Below, piece by piece: positions 1,963-17,536 of a stretch of 26,531 nt of DNA. The position numbers and the translations under genes were made by a program. The notes under the pieces are model-generated. The model did not search any database. It was not told the origin of the DNA and was given only the letters and a program-made list of their open reading frames with translations. Each line of letters starts with the position of its first letter. Position 1 is the first letter of the stretch. Source of the stretch: a virus; the IMG/VR virus record IMGVR_UViG_3300002835_000930, positions 1-26,531 of that record; one strand, given 5' to 3'.

Positions 1963-3279
1963 TTAAACTGTTCTAGCCTCGCCGTGTAAAATTTTAAATG
2001 TTGGAAATCTTAAACTAATACCACCATCTTGATTTTGACTTTCTTGAAAATATTGTACTGTGATTATCTTTCCAAGAATTTTGTTAGGATTCTTGTGAAA
2101 GTCCTGTCTTTGCTCAATAGTGAAGCCAGATCCAACACGCACATTATATCCTTTATGTTTAATAGTAACACAACTTAGCATAGTTTCTTCGTGTTCCTTA
2201 CCATTCAATACATAACGAAATGGACCCATTTCAACATCTACTACTTCGTATTCATTATCACTAAAACTCTTATACTTGAGCAAGTCCTTACTACGCTTTC
2301 CTTTATAGGATTCATCTGCCCTTAGCACCAACCCCTCCCAAGAATTCTCATTTGCTTTTGCTACCCATTCAGCAAAATGATCATCATTTTTAACCCTATC
2401 CTGTTCAAGAACACTGAGACATGGGCAAGAGTTATTCTTCATAACTTCTTTGAGATTATTCAATCTGTGAGAGTAAGTCTTATTAGACTTGCCTTTCTTA
2501 GTATAAAATTCATCATGACTAATCATGTCAAAAATCTTAAAAGATGGATTAGGAATAGTATGATCCTTCTTCTTGAGTTGTTTCATAACTCCCTGAAAAT
2601 CTTCATTACCATCGTCATCTACAAGACAAAGTTCACCATCAAATACTACATTAGTAACACCAAGATTCTTAATGCCACCAGCAACAACGCCAAGAGTATC
2701 AAATTCTTTTCCTGTACGGGAATAGAAAGTAGTATCGCCATTACTATCAACAATAGCGATACATCTAGCACCGTCAATTTTTCTGCTAACATACCATCCA
2801 TCCTTCCAGTCTACAATATTCGGGTCATATTTATCTGCTAGAGCAACACTGAACTCTGGAATATGGTCAGCAATAGCCTTGTTGATAATCTTATCACCAG
2901 CACGGGTTTTCAAATCCTTATCAATAATGCAATAAATGAGTTCTTCAATATTGTCTTTATTTGACTGACTATCAATAAAAGTATGGACCGCTCCGATAGC
3001 ATCGTGGCCCGTTATCTTGCGAGTCTTTAGGTCATCCAAAAGATCAAAGAAATTCTTATAACTCTTACCTCTCAGAGAATTTTTCTTTTTCAGATTATCA
3101 CTTGTGACATTATACTGCCAAAGAGGATGATAGGTGTAAAGAAGAATCTTCTTAGCAAAATTTGCAGCCTCAGAATTATGATTGCAATAGTCCTCAATAA
3201 TTCCTTGCTTATCAATAGTGCTGCTTGTGGCCCTAAGATCACGAACCATTCCCCAAACATAATTAAAATCGTGAGTCAT
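1963..3279 (-). CDS. ATP-dependent DNA ligase
   Basis: A 438-residue ligase that seals nicked DNA via an enzyme-AMP intermediate. Motif I is SRKIDGARC with the nucleophile Lys at 167. Motif III is TFYSRTGKEF, motif IIIa VFDGELCLV (about 212-220), motif IV EGLVLR (315-320), and motif V KYK (335-337). An N-terminal helical domain and a C-terminal OB-like part (NVRVGSGFT) complete the normal architecture. The start at 3279 follows AGGAG. The longer reading to 3324 is rejected because a perfect promoter lies inside it. It probably acts in phage replication and repair. Confidence 0.95.
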   Translation of the reverse strand: MTHDFNYVWGMVRDLRATSSTIDKQGIIEDYCNHNSEAANFAKKILLYTYHPLWQYNVTSDNLKKKNSLRGKSYKNFFDLLDDLKTRKITGHDAIGAVHTFIDSQSNKDNIEELIYCIIDKDLKTRAGDKIINKAIADHIPEFSVALADKYDPNIVDWKDGWYVSRKIDGARCIAIVDSNGDTTFYSRTGKEFDTLGVVAGGIKNLGVTNVVFDGELCLVDDDGNEDFQGVMKQLKKKDHTIPNPSFKIFDMISHDEFYTKKGKSNKTYSHRLNNLKEVMKNNSCPCLSVLEQDRVKNDDHFAEWVAKANENSWEGLVLRADESYKGKRSKDLLKYKSFSDNEYEVVDVEMGPFRYVLNGKEHEETMLSCVTIKHKGYNVRVGSGFTIEQRQDFHKNPNKILGKIITVQYFQESQNQDGGISLRFPTFKILHGEARTV

Positions 3280-3305
3280 CCAAATAGTCTCCTGTGTGTA
3301 TGTCG

Positions 3306-3334
3306 AGTATACCACAACGCTCAAACACTGTCAA
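3306..3334 (-). promoter_or_regulatory. Sigma70-type promoter of the ligase gene
   Basis: -35 TTGACA (3329-3334), 17 bp spacer ending TGTGG, -10 TATACT (3306-3311). Its -35 overlaps the end of the glycosyltransferase gene. The predicted RNA has a short leader with AGGAG before the ligase ATG. Confidence 0.9.
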
Positions 3335-4298
3335 CCTCTATATCGTCATCCTCTCTGCGAAACTCAAGATATTGTTTCAAATCTTTGACGATAGGATGTA
3401 TAATTTTCATCTCAATAACACCATCAGAGTTTTTAGAAAATTTTATTGGACCAGGAATAAATCTATCTTGATTACCGTACTCTCTATTTTTTGGATGACC
3501 ATGAAATAGATGTAAACCACAATTATCTTTTAAATAATTAACATCTTTTATTGGATCGCATAATTTTAATATATTATTTTTATATTCTATGTATTTTTCT
3601 TTTACTTCTTTAAATCTTGGAGCAGAAAATAGGGCGCAACAATAAGGTTCATAGTCTTTTACAAAAGAAGCCCAAAATAAAGTATCTCCAGCGGTTCCAT
3701 GAGCATATTCAAATAATCTGCCAATTTTATGATAAAAATTTCTCTCGATACAAATATTATAGCCCGGATGAACATTGTTAAATTCAAAAGACTTTTGTTT
3801 AATAATAGATTTGACAACTGTGTGCTTGGTATCGCCAGCGTTCAGATTTACATTATCATAAATGTTTTTTCTATAAATATCTTTATATAGATATTCGCAA
3901 CCATGAATAACTTTATATGTGTCTAATAGAATAGAAATTTTATCAATCCAATCTGGATCAGAGTATAGTATATCTACATCAGTAAATATTAATTTAGTAT
4001 ACTTATCTGGAATTTTAGATTCTATTATATTCCATAGATTCTCTTTTGAAAAGAAAAAAGAGTCTGCTCTTACAATATAATTTGCTTGTGGGATAGATTG
4101 TTTTTGTTGTGGATAAAGTAGTTCTATTATATAGAATGGAATATTTGTTTTATTTAATTCTTGAATAATTAATTGTAAGTTTTTTACTGTAGATTTATAA
4201 TTTAGAGCATTATAAAAACTCATAACTAAACATATATCATCGGATTCAATATCTGTGTATCCGGTATACGATTTATTTGTATTTGGTTTTATTATCAT
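3321..4298 (-). CDS. GT-A-like glycosyltransferase
   Basis: A 325-residue protein. The DxD metal and nucleotide-sugar motif is in LIFTDVDILYS (D107/D109). HPGYNICIERNFYHKIG (177-193) followed by AHGTAGDTLFW resembles the acceptor-side motif of Glyco_transf_7C-like enzymes (GY..R...GG.D..W). The N-terminal strands (DICLVMSFYNAL) fit a GT-A fold. It overlaps the sulfotransferase-like gene by 26 nt, so the two are probably made together. Substrates are unknown; a phage-borne surface glycan or modified base is possible. Confidence 0.65.
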   Translation of the reverse strand: MIIKPNTNKSYTGYTDIESDDICLVMSFYNALNYKSTVKNLQLIIQELNKTNIPFYIIELLYPQQKQSIPQANYIVRADSFFFSKENLWNIIESKIPDKYTKLIFTDVDILYSDPDWIDKISILLDTYKVIHGCEYLYKDIYRKNIYDNVNLNAGDTKHTVVKSIIKQKSFEFNNVHPGYNICIERNFYHKIGRLFEYAHGTAGDTLFWASFVKDYEPYCCALFSAPRFKEVKEKYIEYKNNILKLCDPIKDVNYLKDNCGLHLFHGHPKNREYGNQDRFIPGPIKFSKNSDGVIEMKIIHPIVKDLKQYLEFRREDDDIEVDSV

Positions 4299-5091
4299 AT
4301 GGTAAAGTATTAATTTGAAATTTAATATTTCTACATCTTAAAAAATTAAATAGTTTATCTGGCGAATCTTTTTCTATATTAAATACAAATAATCTATGAA
4401 TATTTCTATGAAAATATTTTTTAATATTATTATGATGTTCTTTCCAGTCGTTTTTCCAAATTTTAATAATTTCTGATTTTATGTTTGTGTTATATACTTT
4501 TTTAAATAAATCTATATATTGAATTGTGTTATTATCAGTATCGACGAAAGAATGATTTGTTCTACTTCGTATCCAATTATCCATATTCCTAGTATTTAGT
4601 ATGAATAAACTTTCAGGATAATTAATATCAAGGATATCAAAAAAATCTTTATATATTTGTATATACTTTATTACATTTTGTTCTTTTATAAAACATTCCA
4701 TGTCTCCAAAATAAGTATAGTTTTCATAAGAGTCTAATGGCAAATGATTATCAGAGTAAACATTACTATATATTTTTTGGGCCAAGTTTCCATAGTCCCA
4801 GTGAATAGCCTTTAATTTACTATAACTATTAAATAAATTCCATAATGATAAAGTGCCACATTTATTAAAACCAATTTGAAATATTTTATTACAAGAAAGT
4901 TTTTCTTTTGGATAACAATATTTTCTATTTTCTTTTCTTCCCCAATTTATGTAATGATATTTTGCGAGATTTTCGGTATCGAAACCTGCTTGTTGTACAT
5001 CAGAGTAATAATAAGTATAAAATTCCCAATCAAAATCTTGTGGAATAAATTCTTTATATTTTTCTAAAAAATCATCTAGTTCTTTGTCCAT
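4273..5091 (-). CDS. Sulfotransferase-like protein with N-terminal FDxxFY..HY..WG module
   Basis: A 272-residue protein. KIFQIGFNKCGTLSLW (69-84) matches the PAPS-binding P-loop of sulfotransferases, and LFILNTRNMDNWIRSR (162-177) matches the 3'-phosphate-binding segment. Residues about 19-57 (DFDWEFYTYYYSDVQQAG, then KYHYINWGRKENR) match a short module known mainly from the N-termini of bacterial glycan-synthesis enzymes (FDxxFYLxxNPDV ... HYLxxGxxEGR). A PAPS-dependent sulfotransferase acting on a glycan is the likeliest role. No SD is visible; the start overlaps the DUF6356 gene by 20 nt. Confidence 0.7.
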   Translation of the reverse strand: MDKELDDFLEKYKEFIPQDFDWEFYTYYYSDVQQAGFDTENLAKYHYINWGRKENRKYCYPKEKLSCNKIFQIGFNKCGTLSLWNLFNSYSKLKAIHWDYGNLAQKIYSNVYSDNHLPLDSYENYTYFGDMECFIKEQNVIKYIQIYKDFFDILDINYPESLFILNTRNMDNWIRSRTNHSFVDTDNNTIQYIDLFKKVYNTNIKSEIIKIWKNDWKEHHNNIKKYFHRNIHRLFVFNIEKDSPDKLFNFLRCRNIKFQINTLPYDNKTKYK

Positions 5092-5287
5092 TAGAGAATC
5101 TTTTATTTAGTTTTTTAACTAGATCACTACCTGTTGTTTGTAGTATACAAGGAAATATGGAATGTATAATTAGAGAAATTCCTGCTAGGACACATAGATA
5201 TCCATAAAATAAAGCAAAAAACATATGTTGACAATATGTCATTTTGTTTTCTTTTAGATGCTCACTCCATCTGTTTATTAATCTCAT
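5072..5287 (-). CDS. DUF6356-like small membrane protein
   Basis: A 71-residue protein. MTYCQHMFFALFYGYLCVL and AGISLIIHSIFPCILQ form one long or two short membrane segments, followed by TTGSDLVKKLNKR. The order YxxHM...A...G...IH..FPC..Q.TGSD.V..L matches the DUF6356 family of phage and bacteria (recalled). Both ends overlap neighbours, by 26 nt at the start and 20 nt at the stop. Function unknown. Confidence 0.75.
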   Translation of the reverse strand: MRLINRWSEHLKENKMTYCQHMFFALFYGYLCVLAGISLIIHSIFPCILQTTGSDLVKKLNKRFSNGQRTR

Positions 5288-5633
5288 TTTGTTTTCTATT
5301 CTTAGACATTATTAAATAGTTAGCAGCCTTAATAACACCTTCTAAGTTATCTCCTAGTTTCCCTATTCCAGTATTACACCTATCGCATGTCCAGCCCCTA
5401 AAACTATCATCATCATGATCATGGTCTAATCTCCATTCTGATGGAATTTTACCACAACATTCACAATATAATGGTTTTGGTGGTGCTAATTTATGTAGTT
5501 TATGTCTAATTTTAGCGTGTTTTTTGATACAAGATCGACATCTCTTGTCTAGATTATCTTTAAAGTGACAATGTTTTGGGAAAGATTTTGGATTCTTTCT
5601 TTTGCCACAATATGTACAAATTTTTCTACTCAT
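5262..5633 (-). CDS. Endonuclease VII-like HNH nuclease
   Basis: A 123-residue protein. An N-terminal zinc ribbon (CTYCGKRK, then CRSC) precedes the recombination endonuclease VII signature: CECCG, then LDHDHDDDSFRGWTCDRCN and TGIGKLGDN (about 69-96). This is the T4 gp49-type treble-clef HNH fold. Relatives resolve branched DNA or nick DNA; a homing role cannot be excluded. The ATG lies only 7 nt from the tmRNA 3' end and has no SD of its own, which is unusual. Confidence 0.85.
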   Translation of the reverse strand: MSRKICTYCGKRKNPKSFPKHCHFKDNLDKRCRSCIKKHAKIRHKLHKLAPPKPLYCECCGKIPSEWRLDHDHDDDSFRGWTCDRCNTGIGKLGDNLEGVIKAANYLIMSKNRKQNEINKQME

Positions 5634-5866
5634 AATTTATTGGAGGCGGGCAGAGTCGAACTGCCGTCTTGCGATATTTCTAATTATACTTTCTACAAGT
5701 TTATTTCATTCATAAGTTTTAAGAAAGATTAAAGAACAAACAACATTCATCTTTCCGTACCAACTAATCTCAGGCCAGAACCCGTTGGTTATTCTAGCAG
5801 CCGAAGGATTTTACGACAGTTTTTTGGACGCTACCTTCATCGCTTCCTAAAACTGTTGCTACTTAA

Positions 5867-5905
5867 TTAAGCAGCAAGGGCTAACTGTGTTTCGCCAGTT
5901 AAAGC
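5867..5905 (-). other. tmRNA tag reading frame (ALTGETQLALAA)
   Basis: Reading from GCT at 5905 gives A-L-T-G-E-T-Q-L-A-L-A-A then TAA, the classic ALAA degradation end. The likely resume codon is GCU, about 87 nt from the RNA 5' end as in E. coli. AAC one codon earlier is a less likely alternative. Confidence 0.8.
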
Positions 5906-5910
5906 GTTTA

Positions 5911-5948
5911 GTATGGTTTTAAAGTAGCCGCCATACCACCTACTACTT
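5911..5948 (-). other. tmRNA pseudoknot PK1
   Basis: Stem 1 pairs AAGTAG (5948-5943) with CTACTT (5927-5922). Stem 2 pairs GTATGG (5936-5931) with CCATAC (5916-5911). The order S1a-S2a-S1b-S2b is an H-type pseudoknot just upstream of the resume codon. Confidence 0.8.
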
Positions 5949-5981
5949 GCTTATATAGTCTTCAATATCCAATCGATACCA

Positions 5982-6521
5982 TTACGCCCCCGTATTTGTT
6001 TGATATAAATGCCTATAATAACTCATAATTATACCACTTGTTGTACCAACATTTAGTGATCTTACGCTACCATAGTTTTGTAAAGTAATAATTTCGTCAC
6101 TATTTTCTAGTATATAATCGCTCAGTCCCATATTTTCTGAACCAAATACGAAAACTGGTCTATAGTAAAGGTTATATTTTGTGAACAAATCTACTGTTTT
6201 GTTAGCAAAATTTGGAATATTATTCTCTACAGCAATAATTGTACGATCTCTATTGTTTTCTATAAAATCTTCTTCAGTATAAAAATGTTGTATTGTAGTA
6301 TAGTGATGAGTTCCAACACTACCTCTTTTGTCCCATTTTTTTCTTGGACTAATATTGTATACTCTATCAAAACCAAAAAAATTAGCATTACGAATCATAG
6401 TGCTAATATTAAAGTCTCCCTCAATATTTACCATAGCAACTATAGCATCTATTGTTTTTTGCTTACAATAGTTTTTAACGTCGCTAACAGAAAATCCTTT
6501 GAGATTATCAATCACATTCAT
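5982..6521 (-). CDS. SpoU/TrmH-family RNA 2'-O-methyltransferase
   Basis: A 179-residue SPOUT enzyme. Motif 1 is DFNISTMIRNANFFG (36-50), motif 2 is FVFGSENMGLS (124-134), and motif 3 is SVRSLNVGTTSGIIMSYY (152-169). These form the trefoil-knot SAM site of the TrmH class, which methylates the ribose of tRNA or rRNA. No extra N-terminal substrate-binding domain is present. The last residues (TNTGA) and the stop are encoded inside the tmRNA acceptor stem. It starts 14 nt inside the previous gene with poor SD. The RNA target is unknown; the adjacent tmRNA is a tempting candidate (inference). Confidence 0.9.
   Translation of the reverse strand: MNVIDNLKGFSVSDVKNYCKQKTIDAIVAMVNIEGDFNISTMIRNANFFGFDRVYNISPRKKWDKRGSVGTHHYTTIQHFYTEEDFIENNRDRTIIAVENNIPNFANKTVDLFTKYNLYYRPVFVFGSENMGLSDYILENSDEIITLQNYGSVRSLNVGTTSGIIMSYYRHLYQTNTGA
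6028..6036 (-). promoter_or_regulatory. Possible extended -10 promoter for the tmRNA
   Basis: TGGTATAAT matches an extended -10 (TGnTATAAT) about 37 nt upstream of the mature tmRNA 5' end. No good -35 is present, and the bases also encode the conserved SGII of motif 3, so chance is possible. Confidence 0.3.
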
Positions 6522-14995: not shown

Positions 14996-15142
14996 TTATT
15001 TGCTCGCTAACAAATAAAGTCCTATATTACTAAAAGAATACCCCAAATATGCTATAAACATACCAATATTTCCTCTGTATAATTGCTCAAGGCTAACATA
15101 CAAATATACACAACCAGTAAAAGCAATTAACCATGCACTCAT
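14996..15142 (-). CDS. Small two-helix membrane protein
   Basis: A 48-residue protein with hydrophobic segments AWLIAFTGCVYLYVSLEQL and IGMFIAYLGYSFSNIGLYLL around a short YRGN turn. Very similar short hairpin membrane proteins occur widely in phages (recalled). SD AAAGGA precedes the ATG, which forms an ATGA overlap with the UvsE stop. Function unknown. Confidence 0.78.
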   Translation of the reverse strand: MSAWLIAFTGCVYLYVSLEQLYRGNIGMFIAYLGYSFSNIGLYLLASK

Positions 15143-16053
15143 ACTAATATTCCTTTACATATTTGTTCGTATTTCTCTATTGCTAAATCTTTCGCTTTTA
15201 ACTCCATATCTAGATCAAAATCTAATCCATAAGTTTCAAATGGGATTTCAGCATAATCAGCATGGGCGCGTGGATTATTTCCTGGTCTACTTTCACTATA
15301 ATGAAAAAGTGGACGAGTTTGCCAAGTATCATAACACATATTAATTGCTTCAACTTCTGTGGTATTATTTGGATGACACTTATGATGCAAATAGTCGAAA
15401 CAAATTGGTATGCGGGTTATCGGATGAAAAATATCGACTAATTCACGAACACTCCAGCAATTTAGTTTGTCGTCATTTTCGATAGTCATTCGTTTTTGAC
15501 AATTTTCATCAAGACGTTTGAAATTTTCATAAAATCTATGACTAATTTCTTCGCGTGTTCCGTTGTTATTATGAACATGAAGATTCATGGCAGCATTTGT
15601 ATTGGCCGGCAAACCAATCCTATCAAAAAAACTGCTATAAAAGTTTAATTCAACAATGGTTTTCTCAATAACTTTGGGAGTTAAACTAGATAAACTATTA
15701 AATTCGCTTGGATGACAAGTTACGCGAACAGTAGAATTGGATATTGTTGATTGTATATTATCAAATTCATCTTGAATTTCATCATGATTAGGCAAATCTT
15801 CTAAACTAACATTAGCCTCATCATAAGTTATGAGAGGAAAAATATCGCTACTAACACGATACACATAGTTATTTTCTGCACAAAATTTAATGGTTTCGTT
15901 TGTTACCATCAGATTATTTTGAATTCTTTCGCCTAGAATTTTTAGGGCTTCTTCTCTTGGAAGCGAAGAAAAACGCTTGTATGTCATAGTCTGATGACTA
16001 AGACCTTGCTCTTTAAGTTTAAGACTAATACAACACAAACCAAATCTGATCAT
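15139..16053 (-). CDS. uvsE: UV damage endonuclease UvsE/UVDE
   Basis: A 304-residue TIM-barrel metal nuclease that nicks DNA 5' of UV photoproducts. The N-terminal RFGLCCISL, YRVSSDIFPLI (about 65-75), VTCHPSEFNSLS, NLHVHNN, TIENDD, CFDYLHHKCHP and HYSESR all match UVDE metal and substrate motifs. The length is typical of bacterial UvsE. AGGAG lies 6 nt before the ATG and a promoter is directly upstream. It would protect phage DNA from sunlight damage. Confidence 0.95.
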   Translation of the reverse strand: MIRFGLCCISLKLKEQGLSHQTMTYKRFSSLPREEALKILGERIQNNLMVTNETIKFCAENNYVYRVSSDIFPLITYDEANVSLEDLPNHDEIQDEFDNIQSTISNSTVRVTCHPSEFNSLSSLTPKVIEKTIVELNFYSSFFDRIGLPANTNAAMNLHVHNNNGTREEISHRFYENFKRLDENCQKRMTIENDDKLNCWSVRELVDIFHPITRIPICFDYLHHKCHPNNTTEVEAINMCYDTWQTRPLFHYSESRPGNNPRAHADYAEIPFETYGLDFDLDMELKAKDLAIEKYEQICKGILV

Positions 16054-16698: not shown

Positions 16699-16886
16699 GA
16701 ATTGTTAAGGTTTATTGCAGAATATACGTTTAGAATGTTGTGGGTAAAAGCAAATTTAGCATTAAATTGATTTCTAGCATCGTGTTCATCGCTTGCTTGA
16801 AAAGTATCATGCAAAATTAGGGTCTGCTTATAACTATCAGTTTTCTCATAGCCTTGACCTGTTACTAAATATTCTTCTAGCATCAT
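16695..16886 (-). CDS. Small hypothetical protein
   Basis: A 63-residue protein with EEYLVTGQGYEKTDSYKQT, a central helix (SDEHDARNQFNAKF) and an NVYSAINLN end strand. The ATG at 16886 forms an ATGA overlap with the thyX stop; the ATG three bases later has better SD spacing and may be the start. Confidence 0.72.
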   Translation of the reverse strand: MMLEEYLVTGQGYEKTDSYKQTLILHDTFQASDEHDARNQFNAKFAFTHNILNVYSAINLNNS

Positions 16887-17536
16887 ATACTCCATTCATT
16901 ATTTGAGCCACCGCAAGCATCTCCTATATTTGGAAATTGCTCGCAAAATATCTTCTTACACTGTTTTGCTATTTCTATGTGTTCTTTTTGAGTACCATTT
17001 TTTTCTCTCAGAGAAATATAGGTTATCCAAGAACGTAAATTACCATTCATATACAATCTAGTTGGTGTAGCCAGAGGTAAAATAAATCTTGCACACTCTT
17101 TTGCTATTCCATCTTGTATCATACCATCATATAAAGCCTTGCTTTTCGCAAAGTGTTCTCTGATTTTAGTATTCCACTTTGATCTTATTTTATCTGATAT
17201 ATCGTCTATACTATTTTGTCTATTTTTATTATCCTGACGACGCAATTCAAATAGTGGAATTTCTTCAGATAATAGTGTTGTATCAGCATATCTTTGACTA
17301 AATTCTTGAAAATTAAAACTTCTATGACGTAAAATTTGAGCCGCTAATCCTCTTGTTGTGTTTATTTCTAGAGTTAATTGAGCCATTTCAAATATTGACC
17401 AATGTTTATGATCAATACAATATTTTAGTAATTTAGTATAGTTATCGTTATCTTGACCTTTTGGATTAGATACTCTAGCACAATATGATATGATTTTTTC
17501 TGCGTCTGGTGTTACGCTAACTAATTTCACATTCAT
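16883..17536 (-). CDS. thyX: FAD-dependent thymidylate synthase ThyX
   Basis: A 217-residue flavin-dependent thymidylate synthase that makes dTMP from dUMP. The ThyX motif RHRX7S is RHRSFNFQEFS (70-80), followed by QRY. ECARFILPLATPTRLYMNGNLR contains the dUMP/FAD-contacting region, and LRSWITYISLR follows. Length is typical. SD GAGG and ATGA overlap with the preceding membrane protein. It supplies thymidine for phage replication. Confidence 0.96.
   Translation of the reverse strand: MNVKLVSVTPDAEKIISYCARVSNPKGQDNDNYTKLLKYCIDHKHWSIFEMAQLTLEINTTRGLAAQILRHRSFNFQEFSQRYADTTLLSEEIPLFELRRQDNKNRQNSIDDISDKIRSKWNTKIREHFAKSKALYDGMIQDGIAKECARFILPLATPTRLYMNGNLRSWITYISLREKNGTQKEHIEIAKQCKKIFCEQFPNIGDACGGSNNEWSI

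Follow-up and report, generated by a model that had tools for sequence, protein, structure and literature searches.

tmRNA genes were counted in 402 of 18,146 phage genomes, about 2% (PMC9004378). Phages listed elsewhere as carriers include mycobacteriophages Bxz1, Wildcat and others, and Bacillus phage G (PMC4131195). In a survey of complete bacteria, upstream Pfam coding sequences (CDSs) overlapped 250 of 115,660 t(m)RNA genes, about 0.2%. Overlap of smpB with ssrA was reported in Carsonella only, the authors noting that a non-stop mRNA is then to be expected from tmRNA maturation (PMC4131195). Phage tmRNAs as such are already known. The recurrent CDS overlap and the phage-specific tag family described below are new for phage tmRNAs, and the linked HNH genes are also part of the novelty.

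The tmRNA gene and its phage genome

The window, that is the whole stretch of DNA analyzed, is a 26.5-kb IMG/VR virus record (26,531 nucleotides). Its ORFs match those at one end of a 197-kb contig and mostly follow the same order; this contig encodes a terminase at most about 25% identical to those of isolates. No DNA match to the window was found in 50,697 phage records. Judged by these sequences, the window comes from large phages of a family with no cultivated member. As guides to the host, the terminase, ligase, ThyX and UvdE were tried, and led to no close isolate. DNA-repair and nucleotide genes (Ogg-type glycosylase, ATP DNA ligase, UvdE, ThyX) reside at 1180-1917, 1963-3324, 15139-16053 and 16883-17536; ThyX is about 67% identical to cyanophage copies. 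A sulfotransferase-like ORF (4273-5091) and an ORF with no Pfam match (3321-4298) separate the tmRNA cassette from the DNA ligase gene, and neither lies beside the cassette in the 197-kb relative.

A tmRNA within a phage genome had been proposed in the initial annotation, with a covariance search as the check. ARAGORN identified a single tmRNA in the window (Table 1), and cmscan (Infernal) matched RF00023 at 5638-5991 over the full model (1-374 of 374) with 116.1 bits and an E value of 4.5e-45, the gathering score being 47. The G3.U70 pair, which confers alanine identity, is formed by residues 5989 and 5644. A second Rfam match, snoZ157 at 15907-15996, scored under its gathering score and was discarded as a chance match. 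A scan for a promoter and a terminator of the tmRNA performed no better on the window than on shuffled sequences.

Table 1. Features of the tmRNA locus (positions in the window)
Feature	Position	Strand	Basis or remark
SpoU-family RNA methylase CDS; UAA stop is tmRNA nt 8-10	5982-6521	-	PF00588, 78 bits
10-nt overlap of SpoU CDS end and mature tmRNA	5982-5991	-	sequence
One-piece tmRNA gene, mature RNA without CCA	5641-5991	-	ARAGORN; RF00023; covariation in 41 non-redundant relatives
Acceptor stem, 5' strand GGGGGCG	5985-5991	-	pairs with 5642-5648
UUAACU ahead of resume codon	5897-5902	-	UAACU in 49/49 contexts
Tag frame GETQLALAA + UAA, resume codon GGC	5867-5896	-	ARAGORN; codon counts in 49 contexts
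T-arm GGCAG-UUCGACU-CUGCC	5649-5665	-	CM alignment
Acceptor stem, 3' strand CGCCUCC	5642-5648	-	sequence
Discriminator A	5641	-	AUA comes next, so CCA is not encoded (UCCA-AUA)
Endonuclease-VII type HNH nuclease CDS	5262-5633	-	PF02945, 36.5 bits; phrog_2633
DUF6356 small ORF, next in row	5072-5287	-	PF19883, 57 bits

Covariation was measured in 41 non-redundant phage tmRNAs at the 86 pairs of the Rfam structure. Standard pairs fill 87% of the pair cells, and double changes occur at 58 of the 86 pairs. Compensatory cells amount to 478; shuffled sets have a mean of 145 (maximum 181), and slid controls 47-89. G3.U70 is unchanged in 40 of 41 aligned and in 87 of 87 parsed RNAs, while acceptor pairs 4 to 7 vary with compensation. 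Such strong compensatory evolution across the whole tmRNA indicates that selection acts on the RNA itself. The conservation argues for function as an RNA; degradation of tagged proteins is a separate claim.

An encoded CCA is found neither in the window nor in any of the 87 parsed relatives. Since tRNAs at the relatives' loci likewise have no encoded CCA, addition by a host enzyme is presumed. The missing CCA, together with the habit of phages to catch host genes, might suggest a degraded tmRNA remnant captured from the host. This is scarcely credible, as it is contradicted by helices kept with covariation, by tRNAs of the same phages that also end without CCA, and by a conserved place in the gene row. 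The locus very probably encodes a functional one-piece phage tmRNA, which would use SmpB and AlaRS of the host. SmpB was not found in five phage records, and host SmpB is for this reason presumed; as the records are incomplete, a phage SmpB might be encoded outside them. The tmRNA would be transcribed within the minus-strand gene row, excised at both ends by RNase P (5') and 3' processing, completed with CCA, and charged with alanine via G3.U70. Bound to SmpB of the host, it would then gain access to stalled ribosomes and append A-GETQLALAA; the terminal LAA would serve as a ClpXP-type degron. Host trans-translation would in this way be supplemented with a phage-specific tag.

Changes in the D-loop are accompanied by changes in the T-loop. 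D-loop GG occurs together with T-loop UUCGANU in 66 of 72 RNAs, the other 6 having 6-nt loops. D-loop AG accompanies loops such as GGCAGAU and UGCAAAU (7/7), and D-loop UG accompanies 6-nt T-loops (8/8). Co-changes are seen at the tmRNA ends of loci L033, L114, L139, L005, L030, L012, L118 and L127. The AG class is scattered over several branches of the tree built from tmRNA bodies, which suggests that the tRNA elbow of these phage tmRNAs has switched several times. Those with variant D-loop/T-loop combinations are missed by ARAGORN.

The tag peptide and its distribution

The initial annotation had read the tag with an ALT prefix (ALTGETQLALAA). The prefix must be dropped: the tag is GETQLALAA, and GGC the resume codon. 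In some relatives the frame upstream is broken by a 1-nt deletion (GCTTAACT for GCTTTAACT), and G..QLALAA stays intact in these RNAs. The UUAACU motif places an A at -4 and a U at -5 of the resume codon, matching A86 and U85 of E. coli tmRNA, which set the frame (PMC2481249). The tag frame of the window thus has both a hydrophobic ALAA-type end and an A at -4. Tag codons vary at the third base (GCC/GCA/GCT, CTT/CTC), and UAACU followed by GGC is invariant (49/49), which fits translation of the tag with a frame-setting A at -4 (PMC2481249). A phage tmRNA in which the resume codon AGC replaces GGC (L177) has the tag SETQLALAA.

Searches with degenerate codons plus the UAA stop found the exact tag in at least 51 viral contigs, and in 1 of 84,980 cellular species genomes; the wider tag pattern marks at least 120 viral contigs. 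Tags of 90 distinct parsed RNAs, gathered with a search pattern to which QLALAA itself belonged, are GETQLALAA (34), GTNQLALAA (22), GVNQLALAA (8), GNNQLALAA (7), GNTQLALAA (7), GTTQLALAA (5), GKTQLALAA (3), GSHQLALAA (2) and GANQLALAA (2). Among 59 distinct loci gathered independently, through the neighboring nuclease gene, 47 carry a G..QLALAA tag; among the other 12, most either have their upstream sequence cut short or possess a tmRNA whose tag is different. A further clade has the tags GEVTLALAA/GEVSTLALAA. The tag strings searched for are absent, as tmRNA tags, from the open-licence papers searched.

The single cellular match (L064) resides in a genome of the Chloroflexota. Its tmRNA, at 2761-3119 (-), is a real chromosome locus beside smpB and encodes CCA; it is not that of a phage. 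Relatives of L064 in the same phylum (L184-L193) carry GERQLALAA, GDRQLALAA and similar tags, often of the form G-D/E-x-QLALAA and close to the phage tags; in view of these, the GETQLALAA of L064 is probably a convergent match.

The suggestion that the tag could differ from that of the host is supported indirectly by this near-absence from cellular genomes, a comparison that covers cellular species at large. The tag might even be a re-targeting device, by which tagged proteins would be kept from a tag-specific adaptor of the host or sent to a phage factor. The existence of a phage family of tags, G(ET/TN/VN/NN/NT/TT/KT/SH/AN)QLALAA, and the single cellular occurrence of GETQLALAA are in keeping with such a role. 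It is nevertheless improbable, because the C-terminal ALAA is an ordinary degron end, some Chloroflexota tags (GERQLALAA, for example) are near-identical, and no phage adaptor or protease has been identified. With 90 distinct phage tmRNAs having their own tag family, phage re-tagging during infection becomes testable.

Overlap with the upstream coding sequence

The first 10 nt of the tmRNA, GGGGGCGTAA, close the ORF of the SpoU-family methylase, as had been noticed for the methyltransferase CDS from the sequence and is now supported by the PF00588 match. The SpoU frame runs into the tmRNA and uses the conserved UAA as its stop. Cleavage by RNase P ahead of G1 would produce a non-stop SpoU message and, as the cut removes the stop, each transcript would yield either SpoU or tmRNA. 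The idea that processing would cut both messages may thus hold on the 5' side. The cut at the 3' end would release the message for the downstream nuclease with a 7-nt leader.

The overlap is real, but it is neither unique to this locus nor needed for SpoU, since a 98%-identical SpoU in relatives stops 6 nt ahead of a different tmRNA allele, with the tag GVNQLALAA. Distinct tmRNAs with upstream sequence (n=85) were examined for ORFs of at least 45 codons. An ORF ends within -30 to +12 of G1 in 72 of them. The stop lies inside the mature RNA in 23, at +1 (UA followed by G1) in 17 and at +10 in 6, and the overlapping ORFs belong to five unrelated gene families. At the same loci, an upstream ORF overlaps 6 of 68 tRNAs; five of the six overlaps are at +1, and may be miscalls, as the 5' end set by ARAGORN is maybe one base long. 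Overlap was observed at 2% of 176 random GG positions. On sequence grounds, overlap of a CDS with the tmRNA is recurrent in these phages.

The +1 and +10 stops are in one reading frame (UAG-GGG-GCG-UAA). Once the first stop (UAG) is lost, the UAA of the tmRNA itself serves, giving +10. Overlap appears to result mainly from compaction against an RNA with an unalterable 5' end, and the restriction of stops to the discrete sites 0, +1 and +10 would be accounted for in this way. The competing explanation is a selected switch: maturation would make the upstream message non-stop, its product would be tagged and degraded, and the output of the upstream gene would be coupled to the supply of rescue RNA. 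Overlap in 23 of 85 tmRNAs and five families, as opposed to 6 of 68 tRNAs and 2% of random GG positions, speaks for selection, as does the rarity of overlaps in bacteria, where smpB-ssrA of Carsonella stands by itself (PMC4131195). Selection of a switch looks unlikely all the same, because in 49 relatives the close upstream CDS ends ahead of G1, the stop drifts inside one gene family, and the discrete classes are those expected from compaction. If the switch were true, rescue RNA and upstream protein would be mutually exclusive, and the protein would receive a phage-specific degron. The same gene family occurs in phages with and without the tmRNA overlap.

Downstream nuclease genes and comparison with known systems

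On the 3' side, the next ATG (5633) lies 7 nt beyond the end of the tmRNA, as initially annotated. It opens the gene of an endonuclease-VII (EndoVII) type HNH nuclease, which scores above the PF02945 cut-off (23.6 bits) and features the motif DHDH...RG..C..CN in the sequence LDHDHDDDSFRGWTCDRCN. EndoVII-type HNH genes are found within 1.5 kb downstream of the tmRNA in 65 of 87 relatives, and the gap is 30 nt or less in 31. In L081 (17767-19011, minus strand) and L094 a DUF1501 protein, scoring 345 bits in L081, is encoded between the tmRNA and the EndoVII gene. The nearest plasmid homologue of this protein is from a planctomycete (35%), a possible host hint too weak to name the host.

A second HNH-like family starts 54-64 nt past the tmRNA 3' end in all 11 carriers, which belong to diverse tmRNA lineages (L055, at 3300-3836, L009, L035, L046, L130, L204, L214, L220, L231, L277, L280). 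The protein, 178 aa in L055, is HNH-like by sequence, and the only Pfam match is a sub-threshold zinc finger. The gene has its own promoter-like sequence overlying an inverted repeat, and the T-stem in carriers is often GGCAG or GGGGA. The tmRNA of L055 is almost identical to that of the window, but the T-stem GGCAG/CUGCC is swapped for GGGGA/UCCCC just ahead of the extra HNH-like gene. Such a swap is the pattern expected if a homing nuclease had caused co-conversion, as with SegB (PMC2988022); ordinary recombination is a possible alternative source. A remnant of the old tmRNA 3' end was sought downstream in L055, and the candidate was rejected: TTGCCCGCCTCCA recurs in related HNH elements, and is part of a -35/-10-like promoter.

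The fixed place and the one T-stem swap form a genomic pattern suggestive of free-standing homing nucleases, which are known to adjoin tRNA genes (SegB, PMC2988022). The tmRNA might accordingly be a passenger, spread and kept with HNH nucleases homing into its 3' end and of little benefit to the phage. The EndoVII-type genes close downstream in most relatives, the constant distance of the second family in its carriers and the swap exactly beside the HNH gene are all compatible with this. Compensatory evolution through the entire tmRNA weighs against it and makes a mere passenger doubtful; the functional phage tmRNA remains the preferred reading.

The locus resembles those of Bxz1, Wildcat and phage G in that a complete ssrA resides inside a phage genome. 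It differs in belonging to another, uncultivated family, with its own tags, frequent CDS overlap and linked HNH genes. Methylophilales phage Melnitz is likewise an aquatic phage with its own tmRNA (PMC9004378). The Melnitz tmRNA, however, is two-piece and comes with a glutamine riboswitch, whereas that of the window is one-piece, and cmscan against Rfam found no riboswitch in the 26.5 kb. In T4, SegB and MobE are similar in having a nuclease gene beside a structured-RNA or essential gene, with a co-converted flank (PMC2988022); here, in contrast, the putative homing genes are HNH genes at the tmRNA 3' end. In the endosymbiont Carsonella it is smpB that extends into ssrA, and maturation is likewise expected to leave an mRNA lacking its stop codon (PMC4131195). 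In the phages described here, the genes concerned are SpoU and no fewer than four others, all unrelated. Termination of a CDS within ssrA had been reported from Carsonella alone; with 23 of 85 relatives, it is now a recurrent arrangement in phages.
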